NCBI GenBank assembly: GCA_018296165.2
Contig: JACKQL020000044.1
Location: 1 to 64,000 of the forward strand
DNA: 64,000 bases
Direction: 5' to 3'
Source of the DNA: Termitomyces sp. T153
Lineage: Eukaryota > Basidiomycota > Agaricomycetes > Agaricales > Lyophyllaceae
A program made the position numbers and the translations under genes. Every line of letters begins with the position of its first letter. Positions within the stretch are counted from its first letter, which is position 1. The notes under the pieces were generated by a model. The model saw only the letters and a list, made by a program, of their open reading frames with translations. It did not search any database and had not been told where the DNA came from. Positions 3,001 to 50,738 of the stretch are shown piece by piece.

Positions 3001-3674
3001 CTCTTAATCTCCTTACACAGATCATTGTACTTTCCAGGAGGAATGGGTCTGTTCTTCAACACCCATGGCTGGTGAGGTACTACCGGCATCACCACTGGTG
3101 GAAAGTATTCCTCTTTGAACTTCCCCTTCTGACTATCATTCCATGCAAAAGCTTCATTTTGCTGCATCATCAAGTGGTGCAGTAACTTTCTTTCTTCTGG
3201 CCATAGAAACTCCCCTTCATGTGCTTTGTCTATAATCTGTTTGCACTCCTCTGTGTACCTCCCAGTAGGTCTGAATTCAGGTGGATTTGGATTCAAAGGT
3301 GGCATATCCTTTAAAGGGTCCCCAATGATATTCCTCTCTATCCTGAACTCTTCTGGTGTAGTACCTAGGACTGGCCTAACTTTCTTGGCTACAGGCTTAT
3401 ACTTCCCAAACACTTGTACTGTTTCTTCCTGGCTTTTCTCCCCCCCACTCTTGAATTCTTCAGGTAGGTATCCTAGCTCCCCATTCAGATAAGCTCCTAA
3501 TAACTGCCCTGTCCTTTCTCCTGCTACTCCAGTGGCATGGTAAGCATACAAGAATGCATCCTTGAGTTCTTGCTGCTCAAAGCTCTTCTCCTTAACACAG
3601 TACCCCTTAATCCAGAAACCCTCCTCTTCACTGCCCTCTATCATTACTGCAGCCTCTCCTTGGTCAGGGATCAA
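1..3674 (-). CDS. G1 pol (reverse transcriptase-RNase H-integrase), copy 1, C-terminus outside window
   Basis: Replication polyprotein of the retrotransposon. It matches the full-length frame at 43333-47091 residue for residue apart from a few substitutions. About 28 C-terminal residues are lost at the window edge. Visible motifs: the reverse transcriptase active site YIDD (near 2600), RNase H acidic residues, an HHCC zinc-binding region and an integrase DDE triad. There is no ATG at the frame start. The frame opens directly over the protease stop (TTGA overlap) in the -1 register, which fits synthesis by -1 frameshifting from the protease frame. Compared with the second copy I saw a Glu to Asp change in the integrase zinc region (near 1135) and a Lys to Glu change in the RNase H region (near 1998). 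Neither creates a stop. Confidence 0.88.
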   Translation of the reverse strand, partial: MIPDQGEAAVMIEGSEEEGFWIKGYCVKEKSFEQQELKDAFLYAYHATGVAGERTGQLLGAYLNGELGYLPEEFKSGGEKSQEETVQVFGKYKPVAKKVRPVLGTTPEEFRIERNIIGDPLKDMPPLNPNPPEFRPTGRYTEECKQIIDKAHEGEFLWPEERKLLHHLMMQQNEAFAWNDSQKGKFKEEYFPPVVMPVVPHQPWVLKNRPIPPGKYNDLCKEIKRKLEAGVYERSNSSYRSQWFAVLKKDGKSLRIVHSLEPLNKVTIAHSGVPPATEELANHFAGRACGGMCDLYVGYDERTLDPKSRDYTTFQTPYGALRLVTLPMGWTNSVPIFHDDVTYILQEEIPHLTWPYIDDVPIRGPETRYELEGGGYETIAENKGIRRFVWEHLNNVNRIVQRIKYAGGTFSGIKSVLCADEITVVGHLCSYEGRKPETKRYAVVMSWGDCHNVSEVRKFLGTCGTFRMFIQDYAKISEPINRLTKEDVAFVWGEEQKEAMKEMKRRLASCAALKPIDYESEGAVILAVDTSWMAVGFGIFQEDGSNPKIRTCARLGSITLNEREARFSQPKRELYGLMRALQVSSYWLLGCRKLIVESDAKYLKGMLSNPGIGPNATIMRWVEAVLMYHFTLRHVPGKTFSMDGLSRREKQPGDEEYAPVDQSLLDDPKPMIFEYPDEINKVPGWEEHVPLKLEDFIDQIDTRGGYLLATSPEDVQEEVKLGRDREQGIGLRLQEKSNKAGTTLNPVAVLTLSTLLLPEEPSSSTVGEYQEERRTEKGKTLDSLLPLVQDWLRHPGKVQREVLGMKEGQFLKFARQFFFDLKGRLYRRGEEGKHKLVIEKDRRMYMLKSAHDALGHRGTFATKALLEERFWWPEMEADVKWYIDTCHACQVRQKVAVCRQPVVAYTPSIFETIHLDTMHMTPSSNGCKYIVHGRCALTSWMEGRPLRKDNHKLIGQWLFEEVICRWGCISNIVTDNAGQFTKVVHWLSKKYGIQGITIAPYNSRANGRIERPHWDVRQALYKACEDKTKWYWFFWHVMWADRITVRKRFGCSPFFLVTGAHPILPLDLVEATWLVDWPEGPVSTEELVGLRAQALAKHYQHVEEMRSRVSKEKLKWAENFTRENETSIKEYKFKPKDLVLVRNMVAAKSLSGKMSARYWGPMVVLTRTKGGNYIVAELDGTVWQERVAAFRVIPYKARQHIMLPTSIEEWIDITPSKLQELREE

Positions 3675-4669
3675 TTCCTCAAGGCTGACACTTTTCCCAA
3701 GTCTTCATTTTTGTCAGGAGGTTTCTTCCCTCTCTCAAAGGTGGGTAGTGCAGTTCTCTTCCCAGTATTAGGGTCCCTGATGGTGATAATTGCACTCCCA
3801 TCCTTCAAGTTCTGCACATTGCTCTCTGTTGCTGTGTCAAATGGCCTCCCCAGTAGTACTGTATAGGCAGGTTTCTCAAATATATGCACTTGCAAGTATA
3901 TTGTGAAACCTTCAGCAAACTTGAAGGGCACATTCTTAGCCATTCCCAAAGACTCATTGACTTGTTGATTGGCACTCTCCATGCACAGTCTTATGTCAGG
4001 ATCCCAAGTTAGGCCCAAACTTAGAGCTTTGTCCAAGGCCATGCACACAATCTGAGACCCACTATCCAATATGGCTTCCACCTTAGCCTGGTCATTCACA
4101 CTAGGGTACAGAGACCTTAACACCTGCAAGTCTCTAGCCACATAGACCATTTCAGGCCTATCCCCTGGTGGAAGCTGTTCCAAGAAGGTAGCAACACAGT
4201 CTTCATGAACCACTGATCCCTTTGGAATTCCTTCTTCTTCACCTTTTGAGATATGATAACTTGGCTGAGGCAAGTCATCTATATTGACTTGTGCCATCAC
4301 AGATTCCTCCTCACTATCCTGCACAAAGACCTTGGCTGCTGACCACTTGGTAGCACCTTCTTTCTTTCTCCAGGTCTTCTCCAAAGCTTCCTGTATTGCT
4401 GGTACCTTCAACAGTTCCCTGGTAGAGACTGTTACTTCACTATCCAGTATTTTACTAACAATTTCTTCCTCCTTTCTTTGCCATATTCTGGGTTGATACA
4501 AGTCTTTCTTCTCATTTTGAAATTTTATCACTCTGTCTCCATTAACAGCAGGCACCTGCTCAAATGGCAGACTTCCTTTTTCTATCTCTATGACCCCCCT
4601 TTGCCTTCTTAGATCACTCTCAGGTGGTAGTGGTGTCCTCAATTCAGGCTGGACCTTGCCATCTACCAC
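3671..4669 (-). CDS. G1 protease-domain polyprotein segment, copy 1
   Basis: About 332 codons that follow gag in the -1 register. The C-terminal half holds a retropepsin-like active site, ILDSGSQIV, and a downstream LLGRPF segment typical of retroelement aspartic proteases. It would process the Gag-Pro-Pol precursor in the virus-like particle. The N-terminal 170 residues are charged and unassigned. No ATG starts the frame; the first start-like codon is GTG at 4669, and the frame stays open back to the gag stop. This supports translation as a Gag fusion after a -1 frameshift. The stop TGA (3671-3673) overlaps the first pol codons. One visible difference from the other copy is Cys versus Arg in the DIRLxME segment, a CpG-type change. 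Confidence 0.85.
   Translation of the reverse strand: MVDGKVQPELRTPLPPESDLRRQRGVIEIEKGSLPFEQVPAVNGDRVIKFQNEKKDLYQPRIWQRKEEEIVSKILDSEVTVSTRELLKVPAIQEALEKTWRKKEGATKWSAAKVFVQDSEEESVMAQVNIDDLPQPSYHISKGEEEGIPKGSVVHEDCVATFLEQLPPGDRPEMVYVARDLQVLRSLYPSVNDQAKVEAILDSGSQIVCMALDKALSLGLTWDPDIRLCMESANQQVNESLGMAKNVPFKFAEGFTIYLQVHIFEKPAYTVLLGRPFDTATESNVQNLKDGSAIITIRDPNTGKRTALPTFERGKKPPDKNEDLGKVSALRN
3692..3698 (-). promoter_or_regulatory. Candidate -1 ribosomal frameshift site, protease to pol (G GGA AAA), copy 1
   Basis: On the minus strand the protease frame reads TTG GGA AAA GTG, so GGGAAAA is in the register X XXY YYZ required for a -1 slip. The zero-frame stop TGA follows 18 nt after the heptamer. After a slip the frame continues open into pol. 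A possible imperfect stem starts 4 nt downstream (3680-3687 with about 3650-3662). The heptamer is identical in the second copy (47109-47115). G GGA AAN heptamers are known retroviral frameshift sites; use here is inferred. Confidence 0.7.
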
Positions 4670-4670
4670 C
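4623..4670 (-). promoter_or_regulatory. Candidate frameshift-stimulating stem-loop downstream of gag stop, copy 1
   Basis: Positions 4623-4630 (GGTGGTAG) and 4663-4670 (CTACCACC) form a perfect 8-bp inverted repeat. Further pairing is possible inside the loop: TGG 4631-4633 with CCA 4659-4661, and GTCC 4635-4638 with GGAC 4651-4654. It lies 16 nt downstream of the slippery heptamer on the coding strand, somewhat further than the usual 5-9 nt. The same sequence is present in the second copy. A role in frameshifting is inference. Confidence 0.45.
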
Positions 4671-4683
4671 CTCCTTGAGTTCT

Positions 4684-5961
4684 CTAAAAACCCTCCTGTT
4701 TCTGCTGCTGGGTGCCCTTCTCATAAACCTGACTCCTAGTGGTTATTAGACTTGACACCAAGTTCTGCAATTCCTCTATCTTCTTCTCCAAGTCTTCTTT
4801 CTCTTTGGGGACTGCCTGCACATAAGTAGCTATACTTGGCATAGTTACTAAGGGTTCTTCTACCCAACCATAGAAGGCTGCAGCTTTTGGATCCATGATT
4901 GTATTGACCCTTTCTTTAGGAGGCACATTAGGTGGACTCCTGGGAATGGGATCCCCAGAAGGTAACCTAGGCCTGCCTTCAAAAAGAATGAGCTTTCCCT
5001 CTTGGAGTTGAGTTTTGAGGTATCCACAATCATTGGTACGATGCCCTAGCTCCCAACAATGATAACAGTTTATCCCAGCAGCTGTATTGCTATTGCCTTG
5101 GAACTGCATGGTCTGCAGAGTCTGTGCAGGTACCCCAATCCTATTCTGCAGTCCCCCTTGCACAGGAGTCTGACTTTTTGCCTTCCACTCATTGTTCATG
5201 GTCTGCATAAATCCCCTCAAGCTACTCATCTCTTTTCCCAAAGCCATAACTCCATCCTGAAGGTTGGCTAACCTTCCCTCAGTCTCCAAATCAGCCTCCT
5301 GTTTAACCTTGATCATCCCTGGCCCTCTTTCTTTTATAGTTTCTTCACTCCTGAAGGAAGTTCCAGAGTCTACTAAAATAGCCACTATGTTTATGACTTC
5401 TTTCAGATCAAATCTGTCATCTTTGTGTCTCTTCCTGTTAACATCACTATAATGTCCATATTTCTGTAATGCTTGGGCCAAGATGAGCTCCCTGAATGCT
5501 GGAGTAAAGCATTTAGTGAATTTCTCTACCAGTGCTCCATTCCCCAATACTCCTGTCAACTTCTTGGCCTCTGCTCTGAACTTCCTGACAAGTGCATGAA
5601 TTTCTTCTGTGTCATTCTGACTTAATCTGGCATGCTCTTTGCAGATCTTGTCAAGCATGGCCACACTTCCTTCTTCAGCTATTGCTTCTGGATAAGAACT
5701 CTGCACTTCTTTGACAAAGGTCTCCCAGCTTGATCCATCACTAAAACTGTCCAATCCTCTCCATTCACTGTCTGTTTCTGCATCCACATACTCCGTTACT
5801 CTTTCCTTTCTTTCTTCATCATCATTTATTCCTGCAGCCTTGAAGAGGCTTTCCATCTTCCGGATGAAGCGGCGGACTTCTGATGGCTGAGTATGAGTGA
5901 AGCGAGGTGCATCACGGCTTGTAGACAGTGGTAACTTTTGTTTTGAAACTTCTGCTGGCAT
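4684..5961 (-). CDS. G1 Gag (capsid/nucleocapsid), copy 1
   Basis: Structural protein of the virus-like particle, about 425 residues from the ATG at 5961 (Met-Pro-Ala-Glu). The middle resembles a retrotransposon capsid domain. A CCHC zinc knuckle, CYHCWELGHRTNDC, lies in the C-terminal third and a coiled-coil-like Lys/Glu segment near the end. An open frame continues upstream of this ATG but starts only at non-ATG codons. In this copy it contains a TAA near 6195 that the other copy lacks, so I place the start at 5961. The stop TAG (4684-4686) lies immediately after the slippery heptamer. Confidence 0.87.
   Translation of the reverse strand: MPAEVSKQKLPLSTSRDAPRFTHTQPSEVRRFIRKMESLFKAAGINDDEERKERVTEYVDAETDSEWRGLDSFSDGSSWETFVKEVQSSYPEAIAEEGSVAMLDKICKEHARLSQNDTEEIHALVRKFRAEAKKLTGVLGNGALVEKFTKCFTPAFRELILAQALQKYGHYSDVNRKRHKDDRFDLKEVINIVAILVDSGTSFRSEETIKERGPGMIKVKQEADLETEGRLANLQDGVMALGKEMSSLRGFMQTMNNEWKAKSQTPVQGGLQNRIGVPAQTLQTMQFQGNSNTAAGINCYHCWELGHRTNDCGYLKTQLQEGKLILFEGRPRLPSGDPIPRSPPNVPPKERVNTIMDPKAAAFYGWVEEPLVTMPSIATYVQAVPKEKEDLEKKIEELQNLVSSLITTRSQVYEKGTQQQKQEGF
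4687..4693 (-). promoter_or_regulatory. Candidate -1 ribosomal frameshift site, gag to protease (G GGT TTT), copy 1
   Basis: On the minus strand the end of gag reads GAG GGT TTT TAG. GGGTTTT is thus in the X XXY YYZ register with the stop codon as the next codon. A -1 slip gives TTA GAG AAC and joins the protease frame, which is open without its own ATG. The same arrangement is kept in the second copy at 48104-48110. Confidence 0.72.
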
Positions 5962-6302: not shown

Positions 6303-7365
6303 TGTAGTACTGGGTTAGAGTAATACTGATAGTTCTGGGGCTTTCTTGAAGACTTAGGCAGTCTACTCCAATTCAACACTGATGTCTTGATGAATGCTTG
6401 AAGTTGAAGGGGTTTACTTCCAAAATATTTCTATTCTGAATGCAGAGGGGTCTCAACAAACTCCAGCCTAAGTGATTCACTCCCTGGGAACCACCGAGCC
6501 TTTGCCTATTAATTGCCTGTCCATTTGCTACTCTACTTGGGCTATTTATACCTCTTTCTACAGTGCACAGACCACCCCCTACATGTGACTTTTGGTTCCA
6601 TACTTTCCAGCCCCTTATTCATAACTGTTATTCTAATTCCCCCTTTTGGCATGCCTGTTTCAGTGCCACAGGCCAGTTCCTGGTTCCATCATTCCTCCTT
6701 TGCATTCTTAGCTTCCATTTGCCCCATTTATCTCTCCCTCCTTTGTATTTCTTCCATTCATATTCTTCTCCATTCAGGTCCTTTCCCATTCAGGTTCTTC
6801 CATTCATCTGTCCCCTCCCATTCATTCCATTCATCTTCCTTTATTCCTTTCATATTCTTCCCCTTTTAGGTTCTTTCCCATTCAGGTTCTTCCATTCATC
6901 TTCCTTTCCCTTCCCTTCATTCCATTCATTTCATATCCTTCCATTCATCTTCCTTTCCCTTCCCTTCATTCCATTCATTTCATATCCTTCTATTCATCTT
7001 CCTTTCCCTTCCCTTCATTCCATTCATTTCATATCCTTCCATTCATCTTCCTTTCCCTTCCCTTCATTCAATATTCCAATCTGGTTATTCTTAGATCAGA
7101 TCTAGATCTTGCCAGAATTGATGCCACTCAGGTGCTTTTGCCAGTCCCATGCTTCCCCTCCCATTACAGTGATTGGACTATTATTGAGTGTATAGTCTAG
7201 TATAGTCCTTGTCCTATCCTGTTCTGTCTTTCTTCTGGTGTATTTAAAGGGATAATGTTGCTGGGACTTGTTTTACCAGGAGGCTTACAGTTTTCAGCCT
7301 TAATAAATGTTTGTTTTGACTTCTGGTGTTTATTATGTTCCCAATGGTGTGACAACATCGTATCA
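6303..7365 (-). repeat. 5' LTR of G1, copy 1 (1063 bp)
   Basis: Bounded by TGATACGATG...AGTACTACA on the minus strand, identical at its ends to the two LTRs of the second copy (42009-43071 and 49720-50738). Compared with 42009-43071 it lacks a 49-bp stretch near 6775 and has one extra 49-bp minisatellite unit, so the lengths are equal. Plus-strand open frames of up to 180 codons here are low-complexity reading through TTCC/ATTC repeats, not genes. Confidence 0.93.
6890..7077. repeat. 49-bp minisatellite inside the G1 LTR, about 4 units
   Basis: Tandem unit of 49 bp starting TTCCATTCATCTTCC and ending TTTCATATCC on the plus strand, the last unit partial. The same array has about 3 units in the LTR at 42009-43071 and 2 in the LTR at 49720-50738. 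Confidence 0.88.
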
Positions 7366-42008: not shown

Positions 42009-43071
42009 TGTAGTACTGGGTTAGAGTAATACTGATAGTTCTGGGGCTTTCTTGAAGACTTAGGCAGTCTACTCCAATTCCACACTGATGTCTTGATGAA
42101 TGCTTGAAGTTGAAGGGGTTTACTTCCAAAATATTTCTATTCTGAATGCAGAGGGGTCTCAACAAACTCCAGCCTAAGTGATTCACTCCCTGGGAACCAC
42201 CGAGCCTTTGCCTATTAATTGCCTGTCCATTTGCTACTCTACTTGGGCTATTTATACCTCTTTCTACAGTGCACAGACCACCCCCTACATGTGACTTTTG
42301 GTTCCATACTTTCCAGCCCCTTATTCATAACTGTTATTCTAATTCCCCCTTTTGGCATGCCTGTTTCAGTTCCACAGGCCAGTTCCTGGTTCCATCATTC
42401 CTCCTTTGCATTCTTAGCTTCCATTTGCCCCATTTATCTCTCCCTCCTTTGTATTTCTTCCATTCATATTCTTCTCCATTCAGTTTCTTCCCTTCTTCTT
42501 CCTTTATTTATTTCATATTCTTCCCCATTCAGGTCCTTTCCCATTCAGGTTCTTCCATTCATCTGTCCCCTCCCATTCATTCCATTCATCTTCCTTTATT
42601 CCTTTCATATTCTTCCCCTTTTAGGTTCTTTCCCATTCAGGTTCTTCCATTCATCTTCCTTTCCCTTCCCTTCATTCCATTCATTTCATATCCTTCCATT
42701 CATCTTCCTTTCCCTTCCCTTCATTCCATTCATTTCATATCCTTCCATTCATCTTCCTTTCCCTTCCCTTCATTCAATATTCCAATCTGGTTATTCTTAG
42801 ATCAGATCTAGATCTTGCCAGAATTGATGCCACTCAGGTGCTTTTGCCAGTCCCATGCTTCCCCTCCCATTACAGTGATTGGACTATTATTGAGTGTATA
42901 GTCTAGTATAGTCCTTGTCCTATCCTGTTCTGTCTTTCTTCTGGTGTATTTAAAGGGATAATGTTGCTGGGACTTGTTTTACCAGGAGGCTTACAGTTTT
43001 CAGCCTTAATAAATGTTTGTTTTGACTTCTGGTGTTTATTATGTTCCCAATGGTGTGACAACATCGTATCA
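42009..43071 (-). repeat. 3' LTR of G1 copy 2 (1063 bp)
   Basis: Starts TGATACGATG directly after the polypurine tract and ends AGTACTACA (minus strand). Contains about three 49-bp minisatellite units near 42645-42780. Confidence 0.95.
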
Positions 43072-43083
43072 TCTCCCCCCCAC
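43072..43083 (-). other. Polypurine tract of G1 copy 2
   Basis: On the minus strand GGTGGGGGGAGA lies immediately before the 3' LTR start TGATACG. Confidence 0.85.
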
Positions 43084-43332
43084 CAAATAATGACTGTCCT
43101 CAGTCATCTACAGTTCCAGAATAGGCTAAGTTCCATATTTTTGACATAATTTCACAACATGTGTCCCTTTCTCTTTGCAATGTTTTTGAGGTTTCTCTTG
43201 CATGTTGTGGCTGTCACCCTATCCTTCCAAAAGACATTTAATCCCTCCTCTCTGTCATTCACCTCCTCAATCCCTTAGTTCCTCATGTCTCCTCCTACTG
43301 GTCCCAAAAACCCTGTTTCTTCAGATCCTTAC

Positions 43333-46300
43333 TCAGTTGGATCCTGTGACTTGTGGAGTTTCTTCCTGCAAATGCACACCCTGAAGATAGAGATCCTCCT
43401 CAACATTTCCTTCAGTCCTTTCTTCCCTTAGCTCTTGTAGTTTAGATGGAGTGATATCAATCCATTCTTCTATACTGGTAGGCAGCATGATGTGTTGCCT
43501 AGCCTTGTAAGGAATGACCCTGAATGCTGCCACCCTTTCTTGCCACACAGTACCATCCAACTCTGCCACTATGTAGTTGCCCCCTTTAGTTCTTGTGAGC
43601 ACTACCATAGGTCCCCAATAGCGAGCAGACATCTTCCCACTCAATGACTTGGCTGCCACCATATTCCTAACCAATACTAAGTCTTTTGGCTTGAACTTGT
43701 ACTCTTTAATAGAGGTTTCATTTTCTCTTGTGAAATTCTCTGCCCATTTCAACTTTTCCTTACTAACTCTGCTCCTCATCTCCTCCACATGCTGATAGTG
43801 CTTTGCCAATGCTTGAGCCCTGAGGCCAACTAGTTCTTCAGTAGACACTGGTCCTTCAGGCCAGTCCACTAACCAAGTTGCCTCCACTAAGTCCAATGGT
43901 AGAATAGGATGTGCTCCAGTTACTAAGAAAAAGGGGGAACACCCAAACCTCTTCCTAACTGTGATCCTGTCTGCCCACATTACATGCCAGAAGAACCAAT
44001 ACCACTTGGTCTTGTCTTCACAGGCTTTATACAAGGCTTGCCTCACATCCCAATGTGGTCTTTCTATCCTTCCATTAGCTCTAGAATTATAGGGAGCAAT
44101 AGTTATGCCCTGTATTCCATACTTCTTAGATAGCCAATGTACCACCTTTGTAAACTGCCCAGCATTGTCTGTCACAATGTTGCTTATACACCCCCATCTA
44201 CAGATTACTTCTTCAAATAGCCACTGCCCAATCAACTTGTGGTTGTCCTTCCTCAAAGGTCTACCTTCCATCCATGAGGTCAAAGCACACCTCCCATGTA
44301 CAATATATTTACACCCATTTGAACTTGGTGTCATATGCATGGTATCCAAGTGTATGGTTTCAAATATACTGGGAGTATAAGCTACCACTGGTTGCCTGCA
44401 CACTGCCACCTTCTGACGAACTTGGCAAGCATGACAAGTGTCTATGTACCACTTTACATCTGCTTCCATTTCTGGCCACCAAAACCTTTCCTCTAACAAG
44501 GCTTTAGTTGCAAAGGTCCCTCTATGGCCTAGTGCCTCATGGGCTGACTTCAACATGTACATCCTCCTGTCCTTCTCTATCACTAGCTTGTGTTTTCCTT
44601 CTTCTCCTCTTCTATAGAGCCTTCCTTTAAGATCAAAGAAGAATTGTCTTGCAAACTTGAGAAACTGTCCTTCCTTCATCCCTAACACTTCTCTTTGTAC
44701 TTTTCCAGGATGCCTAAGCCAGTCCTGTACTAGAGGCAAGAGACTATCTAAGGTTTTCCCCTTCTCTGTTCTTCTTTCTTCTTGGTACTCTCCTACTGTA
44801 GAGGAAGAGGGTTCTTCTGGTAACAAGAGTGTAGACAAAGTTAGAACTGCCACTGGATTCAAGGTAGTTCCAGCTTTATTACTCTTCTCTTGCAACCTTA
44901 AGCCTATCCCCTGCTCCCTGTCTCTACCCAACTTCACTTCTTCTTGCACATCTTCTGGAGATGTTGCTAGCAAGTAACCTCCTCTTGTGTCAATCTGGTC
45001 TATGAAGTCTTCCAACTTGAGGGGCACATGCTCCTCCCAACCAGGTACTTTGTTAATCTCATCTGGGTATTCAAAGATCATTGGTTTGGGATCATCCAAT
45101 AGTGACTGATCTACAGGAGCATACTCCTCATCCCCTGGCTGCTTCTCCCTGCGAGATAAACCATCCATACTGAAAGTCTTCCCTGGGACATGCCTCAAGG
45201 TGAAGTGATACATAAGTACAGCTTCCACCCAGCGCATTATAGTGGCATTAGGCCCAATCCCTGGATTGCTTAGCATCCCTTTCAGGTACTTAGCATCACT
45301 CTCAACAATAAGCTTCCTGCACCCTAGTAACCAATAGCTGCTGACTTGCAAGGCTCTCATAAGCCCATACAACTCCCTCTTAGGTTGTGAAAACCTGGCT
45401 TTTCTCTCATTCAGAGTGATTGACCCTAGTCTAGCACAAGTCCTTATCTTGGGATTGCTACCATCCTCCTGGAAGATACCAAACCCAACAGCCATCCAAG
45501 AAGTGTCCACTGCCAAGATTACAGCACCTTCAGACTCATAGTCTATGGGTTTCAGGGCTGCACAACTTGCTAACCTCCTCTTCATTTCCTTCATAGCCTC
45601 CTTCTGTTCTTCTCCCCAGACAAAGGCCACATCTTCCTTAGTCAACCTATTAATAGGTTCTGAGATCTTGGCATAATCTTGGATGAACATCCTAAATGTG
45701 CCACAAGTCCCCAGAAACTTTCTAACCTCTGAGACATTATGACAGTCTCCCCAGCTCATGACTACTGCATATCTCTTTGTTTCTGGCTTGCGACCTTCAT
45801 AAGAGCACAAGTGACCTACTACAGTTATTTCATCTGCACATAGCACAGACTTAATCCCTGAAAAGGTTCCTCCAGCATACTTGATGCGCTGCACAATCCT
45901 ATTCACATTGTTCAGATGCTCCCATACAAAGCGCCTAATCCCCTTGTTTTCTGCAATGGTCTCATAACCTCCCCCTTCTAGCTCATACCTAGTCTCTGGT
46001 CCTCTTATTGGAACATCATCAATGTAAGGCCAAGTGAGATGGGGTATTTCTTCCTGCAAGATATAGGTAACATCATCATGGAATATAGGAACTGAATTAG
46101 TCCATCCCATTGGTAATGTAACCAATCTCAGAGCTCCATAGGGTGTCTGAAAGGTTGTATAATCTCTGGACTTGGGGTCCAAAGTTCTTTCATCATATCC
46201 AACATAGAGATCACACATGCCTCCACATGCTCTTCCAGCAAAGTGGTTGGCTAGCTCTTCTGTAGCAGGAGGTACTCCAGAATGTGCTATTGTGACCTTG

Positions 46301-47091
46301 TTTAGAGGTTCCAGACTATGCACAATCCTTAGACTTTTCCCATCCTTCTTCAGAACTGCAAACCATTGTGATCTATATGAGGAATTTGACCTCTCATAAA
46401 CCCCTGCTTCCAACTTCCTCTTAATCTCCTTACACAGATCATTGTACTTTCCAGGAGGAATGGGTCTGTTCTTCAACACCCATGGCTGGTGAGGTACTAC
46501 CGGCATCACCACTGGTGGAAAGTATTCCTCTTTGAACTTCCCCTTCTGACTATCATTCCATGCAAAAGCTTCATTTTGCTGCATCATCAAGTGGTGCAGT
46601 AACTTTCTTTCTTCTGGCCATAGAAACTCCCCTTCATGTGCTTTGTCTATAATCTGTTTGCACTCCTCTGTGTACCTCCCAGTAGGTCTGAATTCAGGTG
46701 GATTTGGATTCAAAGGTGGCATATCCTTTAAAGGGTCCCCAATGATATTCCTCTCTATCCTGAACTCTTCTGGTGTAGTACCTAGGACTGGCCTAACTTT
46801 CTTGGCTACAGGCTTATACTTCCCAAACACTTGTACTGTTTCTTCCTGGCTTTTCTCCCCCCCACTCTTGAATTCTTCAGGTAGGTATCCTAGCTCCCCA
46901 TTCAGATAAGCTCCTAATAACTGCCCTGTCCTTTCTCCTGCTACTCCAGTGGCATGGTAAGCATACAAGAATGCATCCTTGAGTTCTTGCTGCTCAAAGC
47001 TCTTCTCCTTAACACAGTACCCCTTAATCCAGAAACCCTCCTCTTCACTGCCCTCTATCATTACTGCAGCCTCTCCTTGGTCAGGGATCAA
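43333..47091 (-). CDS. G1 pol (RT-RNase H-integrase), copy 2, intact
   Basis: Makes and integrates the element's cDNA. About 1252 codons. Reverse transcriptase with FAVLKKDGKSLRIVHSL, LPMGWTNSV and catalytic WPYIDDVPI (a YIDD box, near 46020). RNase H acidic residues in AVDTSW, KRELYGLM and VESDAKYL. Integrase zinc finger (HEALGH...CHACQ) and DDE core: Asp in HLDTMHM, Asp in VTDNAGQF, Glu in NGRIERPHWD. No recognisable chromodomain at the C-terminus. It lacks an ATG. The frame begins over the protease stop and must be reached by a -1 shift at 47109-47115. The codons are CpG-poor but uninterrupted. Confidence 0.93.
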   Translation of the reverse strand: MIPDQGEAAVMIEGSEEEGFWIKGYCVKEKSFEQQELKDAFLYAYHATGVAGERTGQLLGAYLNGELGYLPEEFKSGGEKSQEETVQVFGKYKPVAKKVRPVLGTTPEEFRIERNIIGDPLKDMPPLNPNPPEFRPTGRYTEECKQIIDKAHEGEFLWPEERKLLHHLMMQQNEAFAWNDSQKGKFKEEYFPPVVMPVVPHQPWVLKNRPIPPGKYNDLCKEIKRKLEAGVYERSNSSYRSQWFAVLKKDGKSLRIVHSLEPLNKVTIAHSGVPPATEELANHFAGRACGGMCDLYVGYDERTLDPKSRDYTTFQTPYGALRLVTLPMGWTNSVPIFHDDVTYILQEEIPHLTWPYIDDVPIRGPETRYELEGGGYETIAENKGIRRFVWEHLNNVNRIVQRIKYAGGTFSGIKSVLCADEITVVGHLCSYEGRKPETKRYAVVMSWGDCHNVSEVRKFLGTCGTFRMFIQDYAKISEPINRLTKEDVAFVWGEEQKEAMKEMKRRLASCAALKPIDYESEGAVILAVDTSWMAVGFGIFQEDGSNPKIRTCARLGSITLNERKARFSQPKRELYGLMRALQVSSYWLLGCRKLIVESDAKYLKGMLSNPGIGPNATIMRWVEAVLMYHFTLRHVPGKTFSMDGLSRREKQPGDEEYAPVDQSLLDDPKPMIFEYPDEINKVPGWEEHVPLKLEDFIDQIDTRGGYLLATSPEDVQEEVKLGRDREQGIGLRLQEKSNKAGTTLNPVAVLTLSTLLLPEEPSSSTVGEYQEERRTEKGKTLDSLLPLVQDWLRHPGKVQREVLGMKEGQFLKFARQFFFDLKGRLYRRGEEGKHKLVIEKDRRMYMLKSAHEALGHRGTFATKALLEERFWWPEMEADVKWYIDTCHACQVRQKVAVCRQPVVAYTPSIFETIHLDTMHMTPSSNGCKYIVHGRCALTSWMEGRPLRKDNHKLIGQWLFEEVICRWGCISNIVTDNAGQFTKVVHWLSKKYGIQGITIAPYNSRANGRIERPHWDVRQALYKACEDKTKWYWFFWHVMWADRITVRKRFGCSPFFLVTGAHPILPLDLVEATWLVDWPEGPVSTEELVGLRAQALAKHYQHVEEMRSRVSKEKLKWAENFTRENETSIKEYKFKPKDLVLVRNMVAAKSLSGKMSARYWGPMVVLTRTKGGNYIVAELDGTVWQERVAAFRVIPYKARQHIMLPTSIEEWIDITPSKLQELREERTEGNVEEDLYLQGVHLQEETPQVTGSN

Positions 47092-48086
47092 TTCCTCAAG
47101 GCTGACACTTTTCCCAAGTCTTCATTTTTGTCAGGAGGTTTCTTCCCTCTCTCAAAGGTGGGTAGTGCAGTTCTCTTCCCAGTATTAGGGTCCCTGATGG
47201 TGATAATTGCACTCCCATCCTTCAAGTTCTGCACATTGCTCTCTGTTGCTGTGTCAAATGGCCTCCCCAGTAGTACTGTATAGGCAGGTTTCTCAAATAT
47301 ATGCACTTGCAAGTATATTGTGAAACCTTCAGCAAACTTGAAGGGCACATTCTTAGCCATTCCCAAAGACTCATTGACTTGTTGATTGGCACTCTCCATG
47401 CGCAGTCTTATGTCAGGATCCCAAGTTAGGCCCAAACTTAGAGCTTTGTCCAAGGCCATGCACACAATCTGAGACCCACTATCCAATATGGCTTCCACCT
47501 TAGCCTGGTCATTCACACTAGGGTACAGAGACCTTAACACCTGCAAGTCTCTAGCCACATAGACCATTTCAGGCCTATCCCCTGGTGGAAGCTGTTCCAA
47601 GAAGGTAGCAACACAGTCTTCATGAACCACTGATCCCTTTGGAATTCCTTCTTCTTCACCTTTTGAGATATGATAACTTGGCTGAGGCAAGTCATCTATA
47701 TTGACTTGTGCCATCACAGATTCCTCCTCACTATCCTGCACAAAGACCTTGGCTGCTGACCACTTGGTAGCACCTTCTTTCTTTCTCCAGGTCTTCTCCA
47801 AAGCTTCCTGTATTGCTGGTACCTTCAACAGTTCCCTGGTAGAGACTGTTACTTCACTATCCAGTATTTTACTAACAATTTCTTCCTCCTTTCTTTGCCA
47901 TATTCTGGGTTGATACAAGTCTTTCTTCTCATTTTGAAATTTTATCACTCTGTCTCCATTAACAGCAGGCACCTGCTCAAATGGCAGACTTCCTTTTTCT
48001 ATCTCTATGACCCCCCTTTGCCTTCTTAGATCACTCTCAGGTGGTAGTGGTGTCCTCAATTCAGGCTGGACCTTGCCATCTACCAC
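47088..48086 (-). CDS. G1 protease segment, copy 2
   Basis: Same organisation as the first copy: an unassigned charged N-terminal half, then a retropepsin domain with ILDSGSQIV and LLGRPF. The only start-like codon is GTG at 48086. The frame is open back into the gag stop region, in the -1 register to gag. The stop TGA at 47088-47090 overlaps the pol frame. Expected product: part of a Gag-Pro fusion. Confidence 0.87.
   Translation of the reverse strand: MVDGKVQPELRTPLPPESDLRRQRGVIEIEKGSLPFEQVPAVNGDRVIKFQNEKKDLYQPRIWQRKEEEIVSKILDSEVTVSTRELLKVPAIQEALEKTWRKKEGATKWSAAKVFVQDSEEESVMAQVNIDDLPQPSYHISKGEEEGIPKGSVVHEDCVATFLEQLPPGDRPEMVYVARDLQVLRSLYPSVNDQAKVEAILDSGSQIVCMALDKALSLGLTWDPDIRLRMESANQQVNESLGMAKNVPFKFAEGFTIYLQVHIFEKPAYTVLLGRPFDTATESNVQNLKDGSAIITIRDPNTGKRTALPTFERGKKPPDKNEDLGKVSALRN
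47109..47115 (-). promoter_or_regulatory. Candidate -1 frameshift site, protease to pol (G GGA AAA), copy 2
   Basis: Same heptamer and register as at 3692-3698, with the zero-frame TGA stop 18 nt downstream. Confidence 0.7.
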
Positions 48087-48100
48087 CCTCCTTGAGTTCT

Positions 48101-49378
48101 CTAAAAACCCTCCTGTTTCTGCTGCTGGGTGCCCTCCTCATAAACCTGACTCCTAGTGGTTATTAGACTTGACACCAAGTTCTGCAATTCCTCTATCTTC
48201 TTCTCCAAGTCTTCTTTCTCTTTGGGGACTGCCTGCACATAAGTAGCTATACTTGGCATAGTTACTAAGGGTTCTTCTACCCAACCATAGAAGGCTGCAG
48301 CTTTTGGATCCATGATTGTATTGACCCTTTCTTTAGGAGGCACATTAGGTGGACTCCTGGGAATGGGATCCCCAGAAGGTAACCTAGGCCTGCCTTCAAA
48401 AAGAATGAGCTTTCCCTCTTGGAGTTGAGTTTTGAGGTATCCACAATCATTGGTACGATGTCCTAGCTCCCAACAATGATAACAATTTATCCCAGCAGCT
48501 GTATTGCTGTTGCCTTGGAACTGCATGGTCTGCAGAGTCTGTGCAGGTACCCCAATCCTATTCTGCAGTCCCCCTTGCACAGAAGTCTGACTTTTTGCCT
48601 TCCACTCATTGTTCATGGTCTGCATAAATCCCCTCAAGCTACTCATCTCTTTTCCCAAAGCCATAACTCCATCCTGAAGGTTGGCTAACCTTCCCTCAGT
48701 CTCCAAATCAGCCTCCTGTTTAACCTTGATCATCCCTGGCCCTCTTTCTTTTATAGTTTCTTCACTCCTGAAGGAAGTTCCAGAGTCTACTAAAATAGCC
48801 ACTATGTTTATGACTTCTTTCAGATCAAATCTGTCATCTTTGTGTCTCTTCCTGTTAACATCACTATAATGTCCATATTTCTGTAATGCTTGGGCCAAGA
48901 TGAGCTCCCTGAATGCTGGAGTAAAGCATTTAGTGAATTTCTCCACCAGTGCTCCATTCCCCAATACTCCTGTCAACTTCTTGGCCTCTGCTCTGAACTT
49001 CCTGACAAGTGCATGAATTTCTTCTGTGTCATTCTGACTTAATCTGGCATGCTCTTTGCAGATCTTGTCAAGCAAGGCCACACTTCCTTCTTCAGATATT
49101 GCTTCTGGATAAGAACTCTGCACTTCTTTGACAAAGGTCTCCCAGCTTGATCCATCACTAAAACTGTCCAATCCTCTCCATTCACTGTCTGTTTCTGCAT
49201 CCACATACTCTGTTACTCTTTCCTTTCTTTCTTCATCATCATTTATTCCTGCAGCCTTGAAGAGGCTTTCCATCTTCCGGATGAAGCGGCGGACTTCTGA
49301 TGGCTGAGTATGAGTGAAGCGAGGTGCATCACGGCTTGTAGACAGTGGTAACTTTTGTTTTGAAACTTCTGCTGGCAT
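48101..49378 (-). CDS. G1 Gag, copy 2, intact
   Basis: About 425 residues from ATG 49378. CCHC knuckle CYHCWELGHRTNDC and a coiled-coil-like C-terminal segment (EDLEKKIEELQNL). The frame is also open upstream to 49645 but only with non-ATG starts. The stop TAG at 48101-48103 is the codon after the slippery heptamer. Differences from copy 1 are scattered conservative substitutions, for example Lys/Glu near the C-terminus and Met/Leu in the capsid part. Confidence 0.9.
   Translation of the reverse strand: MPAEVSKQKLPLSTSRDAPRFTHTQPSEVRRFIRKMESLFKAAGINDDEERKERVTEYVDAETDSEWRGLDSFSDGSSWETFVKEVQSSYPEAISEEGSVALLDKICKEHARLSQNDTEEIHALVRKFRAEAKKLTGVLGNGALVEKFTKCFTPAFRELILAQALQKYGHYSDVNRKRHKDDRFDLKEVINIVAILVDSGTSFRSEETIKERGPGMIKVKQEADLETEGRLANLQDGVMALGKEMSSLRGFMQTMNNEWKAKSQTSVQGGLQNRIGVPAQTLQTMQFQGNSNTAAGINCYHCWELGHRTNDCGYLKTQLQEGKLILFEGRPRLPSGDPIPRSPPNVPPKERVNTIMDPKAAAFYGWVEEPLVTMPSIATYVQAVPKEKEDLEKKIEELQNLVSSLITTRSQVYEEGTQQQKQEGF
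48104..48110 (-). promoter_or_regulatory. Candidate -1 frameshift site, gag to protease (G GGT TTT), copy 2
   Basis: Identical in sequence and register to 4687-4693, followed by the same 8-bp inverted repeat at about 48040-48087. Confidence 0.72.
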
Positions 49379-49699
49379 GTTGAATGTTTGATTTTGTAAT
49401 GTTGATGTATTGTGATTGTTAGTGGTCTTCTTTCTGCTTGCTCTTAAGATTTGTTCAGGGTCCCCAATACTAATTAGATTGAGTGCTTTAGTCTTGTTGC
49501 TGTGGGTTGTGGGCTTGTGAACTTGCTCTGTGGTGTTGACCCTTTGCTTTGGCACTGTTCTCTTCAGTCTTTCTGGGGTAGACCCTCTTGGTGCAAATGA
49601 TATTTTGATTTTAGCTTGATGTGTGAACCCTGCTTGCTGGTCCACAAAGTCTTGAACTTGATAACAGTGCTTCTTCTTGTCAACTTTCTAAGCCAAAGC

Positions 49700-49717
49700 C
49701 CCTCGCGGTGGGCTCCA
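49700..49717 (-). other. Primer binding site of G1 copy 2
   Basis: Minus strand TGGAGCCCACCGCGAGGG, two bases inside the 5' LTR. It predicts a primer tRNA ending CCTCGCGGTGGGCTCCA. The tRNA was not identified. Confidence 0.75.
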
Positions 49718-49719
49718 GA

Positions 49720-50738
49720 TGTAGTACTGGGTTAGAGTAATACTGATAGTTCTGGGGCTTTCTTGAAGACTTAGGCAGTCTACTCCAATTCCACACTGAT
49801 GTCTTGATGAATGCTTGAAGTTGAAGGGGTTTACTTCCAAAATATTTCTATTCTGAATGCAGAGGGGTCTCAACAAACTCCAGCCTAAGTGATTCACTCC
49901 CTGGGAACCACCGAGCCTTTGCCTATTAATTGCTTGTCCATTTGCTACTCTACTTGGGCTATTTATACCTCTTTCTACAGTGCACAGACCACCCCCTACA
50001 TGTGACTTTTGGTTCCATACTTTCCAGCCCCTTATTCATAACTGTTATTCTAATTCCCCCTTTTGGCATGCCTGTTTCAGTGCCACAGGCCAGTTCCTGG
50101 TTCCATCATTCCTCCTTTGCATTCTTAGCTTCCATTTGCCCCATTTATCTCTCCCTCCTTTGTATTTCTTCCATTCATATTCTTCTCCATTCAGTTTCTT
50201 CCCTTCTTCTTCCTTTATTTATTTCATATTCTTCCCCATTCAGGTCCTTTCCCATTCAGGTTCTTCCATTCATCTGTCCCCTCCCATTCATTCCATTCAT
50301 CTTCCTTTATTCCTTTCATATTCTTCCCCTTTTAGGTTCTTTCCCATTCATTTCATATCCTTCCATTCATCTTCCTTTCCCTTCCCTTCATTCCATTCAT
50401 TTCATATCCTTCCATTCATCTTCCTTTCCCTTCCCTTCATTCAATATTCCAATCTGGTTATTCTTAGATCAGATCTAGATCTTGCCAGAATTGATGCCAC
50501 TCAGGTGCTTTTGCCAGTCCCATGCTTCCCCTCCCATTACAGTGATTGGACTATTATTGAGTGTATAGTCTAGTATAGTCCTTGTCCTATCCTGTTCTGT
50601 CTTTCTTCTGGTGTATTTAAAGGGATAATGTTGCTGGGACTTGTTTTACCAGGAGGCTTACAGTTTTCAGCCTTAATAAATGTTTGTTTTGACTTCTGGT
50701 GTTTATTATGTTCCCAATGGTGTGACAACATCGTATCA
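49720..50738 (-). repeat. 5' LTR of G1 copy 2 (1019 bp)
   Basis: Same termini as the 3' LTR. It is 44 bp shorter because of a deletion between short CATTCA repeats in the minisatellite, leaving about two 49-bp units. Only two base changes against the 3' LTR were noticed (near 49934 and 50082). Confidence 0.95.

Follow-up and report, generated by a model that had tools for sequence, protein, structure and literature searches.

Two copies of a Ty3/gypsy element and their reading frames

Analysis of a 64,000-nucleotide stretch of Termitomyces sp. T153 DNA (contig C44:1-64000, referred to here as the window) revealed two near-identical copies of a long terminal repeat (LTR) retrotransposon on the minus strand. 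Copy 1 starts at the contig end, and its pol frame runs to the contig start; copy 2 is bounded by two LTRs, which are identical at 1017 of 1019 aligned positions, a tandem-repeat indel excepted. The gag frame of copy 2 extends from stop to stop over 48101-49687 on the minus strand, and its product shares 99% identity with a Termitomyces protein over 80% of the stop-to-stop query. The product of pol matches yeast Ty3 reverse transcriptase (RT)-RNase H at 233-671 and retroviral integrases at 814-1054. The domains follow the order protease (PR), RT-RNase H and integrase, as in Ty3/gypsy elements, and LTRs and a short target duplication are present. The element is a young Ty3/gypsy LTR retrotransposon.

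The gag, PR and pol frames overlap, and each is positioned -1 to the preceding frame. This succession of registers had been proposed in an initial annotation and agrees with the open reading frame (ORF) coordinates of copy 2. At the end of gag (site 1), the heptamer G GGT TTT directly abuts the TAG stop codon, and near the end of PR (site 2), the heptamer G GGA AAA lies 18 nt before TGA. Both arrangements were found as annotated, and in both copies. The copies differ at 2 of 1201 positions over the stretch that covers the gag/PR/pol junctions, none of them in a heptamer or hairpin. Read in the zero frame, both sites have the form X XXY YYZ. Of the 2136 codon positions of the element, 5 carry a canonical heptamer in frame, and the two junction sites are among these 5; from this frequency, the chance of a canonical heptamer within either overlap is about 3%.

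Searches of the 72.4-Mb genome, each scoring only part of its candidates, provided 100 loci that were read: 22 of family A (the element in the window), 12 of family B, 65 of family C and 1 degenerate locus of family D. These counts are not independent, since some of the loci are near-identical copies (two such copies lie in the window), and all sister families come from this one genome. Families B and C are 71 to 74% identical to A over the approximately 490 nt of PR matched. Wherever the frames are open, the -1/-1 frame plan was found; it is seen in families A and C and, in family B, in the copies that are best preserved. At site 1, family A carries GGGTTTT (22/22 loci), B carries G GAT TTT followed by TAG (full GGATTTTTAG in 6 of 12 loci), and C carries G GAT TTT followed by TAA (GGATTTT in 54 of 65). 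At site 2, GGGAAAA was present in 20 of the 22 family A loci, and B and C share A AAA TTT TAA (AAAATTT in 10/12 and 50/65 loci, respectively); the canonical second heptamer G GGA AAA is confined to family A. Variation in the site 1 heptamer within family C was 0.010 versus 0.062 upstream; other parts did not differ clearly, and this comparison is not used as support.

Individual loci deviate at the junctions. Two family C loci (L096 and L100) have the canonical heptamer A AAT TTT at site 2 in place of A AAA TTT. Junction indels in L026 and L059 (a shortened site 2; an extra base after site 1) lengthen the open frames, and these longer frames are accidental fusions in single copies. Many copies contain stops and indels, and several contigs terminate within the element, as would be expected if the frames were out of register merely through decay or misassembly. 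However, the same register is present in open-frame copies with near-identical LTRs and between families that are 71 to 74% identical in the PR stretch, and this explanation has a negligible probability.

Table 1. Positions of the element features in the window
Feature	Position	Strand	Remarks
Copy 2 of Ty3/gypsy element	42009..50738	-	TG...CA ends, 4-bp target duplication ATGC
Copy 2 5' LTR	49720-50738	-	1019 bp
Copy 2 3' LTR	42009-43071	-	1063 bp
gag	48101..49378	-	425 aa from ATG 49378, zinc knuckle pattern, C-terminus ..QEGF-stop
Protease (PR) ORF	47088..48137	-	stop to stop, 349 aa, aspartic protease domain, PF13650 match
pol ORF	43333..47121	-	stop to stop, 1262 aa, RT, RNase H, integrase
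Copy 2 site 1 heptamer G GGT TTT	48104..48110	-	gag stop TAG 48103-48101 directly next
Copy 2 site 1 predicted kink-turn hairpin	48034..48096	-	7-nt spacer, CTC-AAG-GA / GA-GAG, 8-pair inner helix
Copy 2 site 2 heptamer G GGA AAA	47109..47115	-	18 nt upstream of PR stop TGA 47090-47088
Copy 2 site 2 kink-turn-like hairpin	47071..47100	-	8-nt spacer, CTT-GAG-GA / GA-GAG, one inner-helix mismatch; fails strict scan
Copy 1 site 1 heptamer GGGTTTT	4687..4693	-	stop TAG 4686-4684
Copy 1 site 1 predicted kink-turn hairpin	4617..4679	-	
Copy 1 site 2 heptamer GGGAAAA	3692..3698	-	stop TGA 3673-3671
Copy 1 site 2 kink-turn-like hairpin	3654..3683	-	

The LTR contains a repeat with 49-nt spacing (6731-7072, 42437-42778 and 50197-50489), in which the copy 2 LTRs differ by an indel. 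A sequence resembling a primer-binding site, TGGAGCCCACCGCGAGG, is located at 49701-49717, 2 nt past the 5' LTR. Contigs C44, C65 and C28 start at almost the same point inside pol of the element (matched stretch at approximately 3.58 kb from each start), and this shared start point probably represents assembly breaks at the repeat.

Predicted covarying hairpins downstream of both sites

The 8-bp perfect inverted repeat GGTGGTAG/CTACCACC annotated after site 1 is present. The family A RNA after this site folds at -30 kcal/mol, a value matched by 2 of 200 shuffles. Single-sequence z scores at site 1 were -3.6 and -2.6 for A, -0.9 to -2.2 for B, -0.3 to -1.0 for C and -1.6 for D; at site 2 they were +1.0 and +2.1 for A (+1.3 in a separate calculation), 0.0 to -0.5 for B and -0.6 to -1.0 for C. 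Folding of the A+B+C alignment was better than all 500 column shuffles at both sites (z of -7.2 at site 1 and -4.7 at site 2); with D added at site 1, it was equalled by 1 of 500. The inner helix at site 1 is GGGTGGTA/TACCACCT in A, AGGTGCC/GGCACCT in B and GGCAAT/ATTGCC in C, where the pairs were read by eye and the first position is A.A, and four of the seven pairs differ in both bases between families. At site 2, the families have G-C (A), G-U or A-U (B) and A-U (C) at pair 4-37, and C-G, U-A and U-G in the same order at pair 5-36; at pair 15-29, A has U-A and both sisters have C-G. The imperfect stem annotated after site 2 has an energy no better than chance in family A, but a hairpin at this place is conserved between families. 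An Rfam scan of 46950-48250 gave a single match, far under the gathering score.

Comparison of the hairpins revealed an internal loop common to both sites, in which CTY, three bases RAK and GA face GA-GAG on the opposite strand. These letters were found by eye at all seven alignable junctions (site 1 of A to D and site 2 of A to C); at site 1 of family D, the inner helix contains extra bases. The spacers between heptamer and structure are 7 nt at site 1 of A, B and C, and 8, 5 and 5 nt at site 2, that of A with one mismatch. All of them (5 to 8 nt) lie within the distance of about 5 to 9 nt that is usual for structures downstream of -1 frameshift sites. The loop corresponds to the kink-turn layout described in PMC5758548, PMC8413462 and PMC8162545: a C-stem, a three-base bulge, GA opposite GA and an NC-stem are all found at site 1 of A, B and C and at site 2 of B and C. 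The kink-turn fit is new in this analysis; only the stems had been seen earlier.

A strict kink-turn scan was run on 11 loci. In L031 and L037 (family B) and L047 (family C), of approximately 4.5 kb each, it returned the two junction matches only, 7 nt and 5 nt past the heptamers. The shorter loci L077 and L057 likewise gave the two junction matches only, L045 gave both junctions and one further match, and the family A loci L009 and L029 gave site 1 and matches elsewhere. The window as a whole contains 23 strict matches on both strands. In per-locus tallies, which accepted 4 to 5 pairs and covered only loci where the site was located, the strict motif was present at site 1 in 20/22 loci of A (one with 4 pairs), 9/11 of B, 45/57 of C and 0/1 of D, and at site 2 in 9/11 of B and 53/62 of C. 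When the 90 nt after each site were shuffled 3000 times and matches at 0 to 12 nt were counted, a strict match appeared at site 1 in 1 (A), 6 (B) and 1 (C) of the shuffles and at site 2 in 20 (A, where there is no real match), 27 (B) and 6 (C). A genome-wide search with GATTTT-N7-CTCAAKGA gave 81 matches, 7 of them with spacers unlike those of the families, versus 0 for the reversed control.

The idea that site 2 is a recent copy of site 1 was rejected. The sites are significantly similar to each other in C (12 and 13 of 2000 shuffles) but not in B (355 of 2000 in L031, 1990 of 2000 in L037), and the similarity is absent in A; because it is so uneven across families, a shared functional motif is preferred over recent copying.

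Relatives elsewhere and other routes to PR and pol

Protein searches found 910 PR relatives, 120 of them among the matches listed; those with names belong to Arthromyces, Tephrocybe, Termitomyces, Tricholoma and Collybia, and the rest are metagenomic or environmental proteins. Relatives outside this genome are known here as proteins only. Among the matches listed, 117 reach LLGRPF: 80 end in xF..S[MR][NIST], 12 in xF..LM[NIS], 19 at or just past xF, and 6 otherwise, the residue preceding F in the xF-ending proteins being D, V, G, S, N or K. Hence, 92 of these 117 have xF, two or three residues, S[MR] or LM, and a residue with an A-starting codon. By the genetic code, S-[MR]-[NIST] would read TCN-AKG-A, the kink-turn strand, provided that TCN encodes S and AGG encodes R. 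Among 27 gag proteins found, 10 end in GF or DF, 3 end in DF plus one residue, and 3 have F slightly earlier. No PR relatives were found in the viral contigs or prokaryote genomes searched; 56 viral-contig stretches match a DNA pattern (raw matches).

The initial annotation had stated that PR and pol lack an ATG. Its frames, heptamers, spacing and inverted repeat were confirmed, but this statement is literally wrong: in family A, PR has an ATG at codon 142, upstream of the catalytic ILDSGS at 217, and pol has one at codon 21. Such codons would allow PR and pol to be supplied by termination-reinitiation or internal initiation, and C and many relatives have an ATG just past the gag/PR junction (DSMK; ..SMM..). 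However, the early ATGs are not shared. Where the PR of C has ATG, A and B have AGG; an early pol ATG is present in C and missing in B (AVSFG...) and D (AVVLIEG...); and the PR ATG of family C sits within the CTCAATGA motif. Splicing would be a further route, and two Tephrocybe rancida gene models (P0128 and P0132) link gag to PR. These joins look like predicted introns that bypass the end of gag and are the sole hint of joined frames; splicing would, moreover, require neither the heptamers nor the covarying hairpins. Supply of PR and pol by any of these routes is considered very improbable.

A different plan was found in distant PR relatives of the same genome. In four loci (L109, at C5:253400-257400, L110, L111 and L112), PR is positioned at the end of a long ORF, and pol follows at +1. 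This ORF comprises 968 aa in L109, where it overlaps pol by approximately 134 nt, and at least 891 aa in L110. Its upstream part is presumably gag; a Pfam search of the L109 ORF recognised the protease and nothing else. The strict kink-turn scan gave no match in L109 and L110. The contrast with other fungal gypsy elements drawn in the initial annotation therefore holds, and the double -1 plan characterises this lineage and does not extend to the group as a whole.

Two probable -1 frameshifts and a proposed role of the hairpins

These data are best read as a pair of -1 frameshifts with a kink-turn hairpin as the stimulator at each site, a reading that is judged probable. Related copies had been proposed as a test of double -1 frameshifting, and they support it in that B and C keep both -1 steps, the shift-prone heptamer G GAT TTT at the gag/PR junction and covarying structures; a caveat is that the second heptamer of family A is replaced in B and C by the non-canonical A AAA TTT TAA.

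A number of observations weigh against this reading. The site 2 sequence of B and C is not X XXY YYZ, as the A-site TTT would re-pair on ATT. Folding energies at site 2 of family A are worse than those of shuffles; at site 1 of family C, the energy is ordinary (z of -0.3 to -1.0, 4 loci), and the minimum-energy fold differs in three of the four. At site 2 of family A, the NC-stem is interrupted and the strict motif was found in 0 of 21 loci; a fit is obtained only when one mismatch is allowed (18 of 21 loci at +8, one at +6), and this relaxed scan has a background of 61 matches in 128 kb. The strict scan matched site 2 but not site 1 in L083 (family C) and gave no match in L106 (family B, both sites) or L107 (family D, site 1 included). 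Each family A copy contains three strict matches beyond site 1 (in copy 2 at 48707-48650, 47729-47689 and 47126-47090, the last of which overlaps the site 2 heptamer). The non-bulged GA-GAG strand of family C is as variable within the family as the sequence flanking it, and the third bulge base is G in A and B, versus U in box C/D kink-turns (PMC8162545). On the protein side, 11 of the 27 gag proteins end otherwise, some of them incomplete and two being the gene models that run into PR (P0128 and P0132, which bypass the end of gag). The PR search, finally, admitted only proteins of 192 to 611 aa. Long fused ORFs were thereby excluded, and the listed lengths (195 to 463 aa) cannot show fused forms to be rare.

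The imperfect site 2 and the surplus matches of family A would both suit double -1 frameshifting with ordinary bulged stem-loops, in which the GA/GA loop is coincidental or has another role, for example in RNA packaging. Bulged hairpins can stimulate -1 shifts, and an A-minor k-turn has been noted in a retroviral packaging signal (PMC5758548). Against this stand the presence of CTY-RAK-GA / GA-GAG at seven junctions at a fixed distance from the heptamer and the absence of strict matches outside the junctions in three 4.5-kb B/C loci. Ordinary stem-loops are regarded as rather unlikely.

According to the preferred double-frameshift reading, one RNA would give rise to Gag, Gag-PR and Gag-PR-Pol. 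Most ribosomes would terminate at the gag stop codon, and a -1 slip on G GGT TTT (G GAT TTT in the sisters) would take others into PR. Some of these would slip again near the PR stop, on G GGA AAA in A and on A AAA TTT TAA in B and C, and enter pol. At 5 to 8 nt past each site, the ribosome would meet a hairpin with a CTY/GAG stem, a three-base bulge, tandem G.A pairs and an inner helix. At site 2 of B and C, the P-site Lys tRNA would re-pair perfectly (AAA to AAA) but the A-site Phe tRNA would not (TTT to ATT), which leaves this step less well accounted for. That the A-site codon there is a Phe codon is likely from comparison with relatives ending in ..DF.., ..VF.. and ..GF...

Mouse mammary tumor virus (MMTV) is an example of a retrovirus with two -1 shifts, and barley yellow dwarf virus (BYDV) has the shift site G GGU UUU UAG. 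In PMC5009743, G_GGU_UUU is listed among the most shift-prone -1 heptamers, two -1 events are described for certain retroviruses and a nearby stop codon is reported to matter at the umbravirus site G_GAU_UUU. Like such retroviruses, the element has gag, pro and pol that follow one another in -1 steps, with a putative shift site at each junction; unlike them, it is a fungal Ty3/gypsy element with a kink-turn-like hairpin instead of a pseudoknot, and the second site of its sisters is non-canonical. The umbravirus, dianthovirus and luteovirus sites share the heptamer kind and a stop at or near the site, but these plant RNA viruses use a single shift and other stimulators. Other Ty3/gypsy plans resemble the element in that recoding or fusion sets the Pol level, and differ in using one shift or none: yeast Ty3 has a +1 frameshift (PMC5009743), CsRn1-like elements have a -1 shift, and Ty3/gypsy ORFs may be separate or fused (PMC2582038); L109 to L112 of this genome are a further example of another plan. 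A partial survey of the literature on fungal gag-pol frameshifting and Termitomyces elements found nothing.

It is possible, although doubtful at present, that both signals are kink-turns that recruit a host protein of the L7Ae family (Snu13, eL8 or eL30), which would set the Gag : Gag-PR : Gag-PR-Pol ratio in trans; the same module would then serve twice per element and would have persisted across a clade of agaric retrotransposons. In family C, the loop AAU-GA/GA resembles the U4 kink-turn. For Snu13, the two G.A pairs and the first pair of the stem are necessary (PMC8413462), and the predicted structures at site 1 of A, B and C would offer them. Features shared with the box C/D and U4 kink-turns, to which Snu13 binds, are a three-base bulge, tandem G.A pairs and an intact first stem pair (PMC8413462, PMC8162545); in the element, by contrast, the motif lies inside coding mRNA and the third bulge base of A and B is G. 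A putative kink-turn in the selenocysteine insertion sequence (SECIS) is bound by L30 and SBP2 (PMC3706390). It resembles the element as a putative tandem-GA kink-turn in recoding, there bound by L7Ae-family proteins, and differs in that UGA is recoded to selenocysteine from the 3' untranslated region, not by a frameshift beside the site.

The known stimulators of -1 frameshifting are mostly pseudoknots and stem-loops. In the partly covered literature on kink-turns and ribosomal frameshifting (titles and abstract openings), no description of a kink-turn as a -1 stimulator was found. If true, a kink-turn used twice per mRNA would represent an additional class of -1 stimulator, possibly unrecognised so far, and would link frameshifting with a protein family, Snu13/L30, that is known from selenocysteine recoding. 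The same fungal genome, moreover, contains a retrotransposon lineage whose gag/pro/pol plan is retrovirus-like and relatives with another plan, a combination that would make the evolution of recoding traceable.

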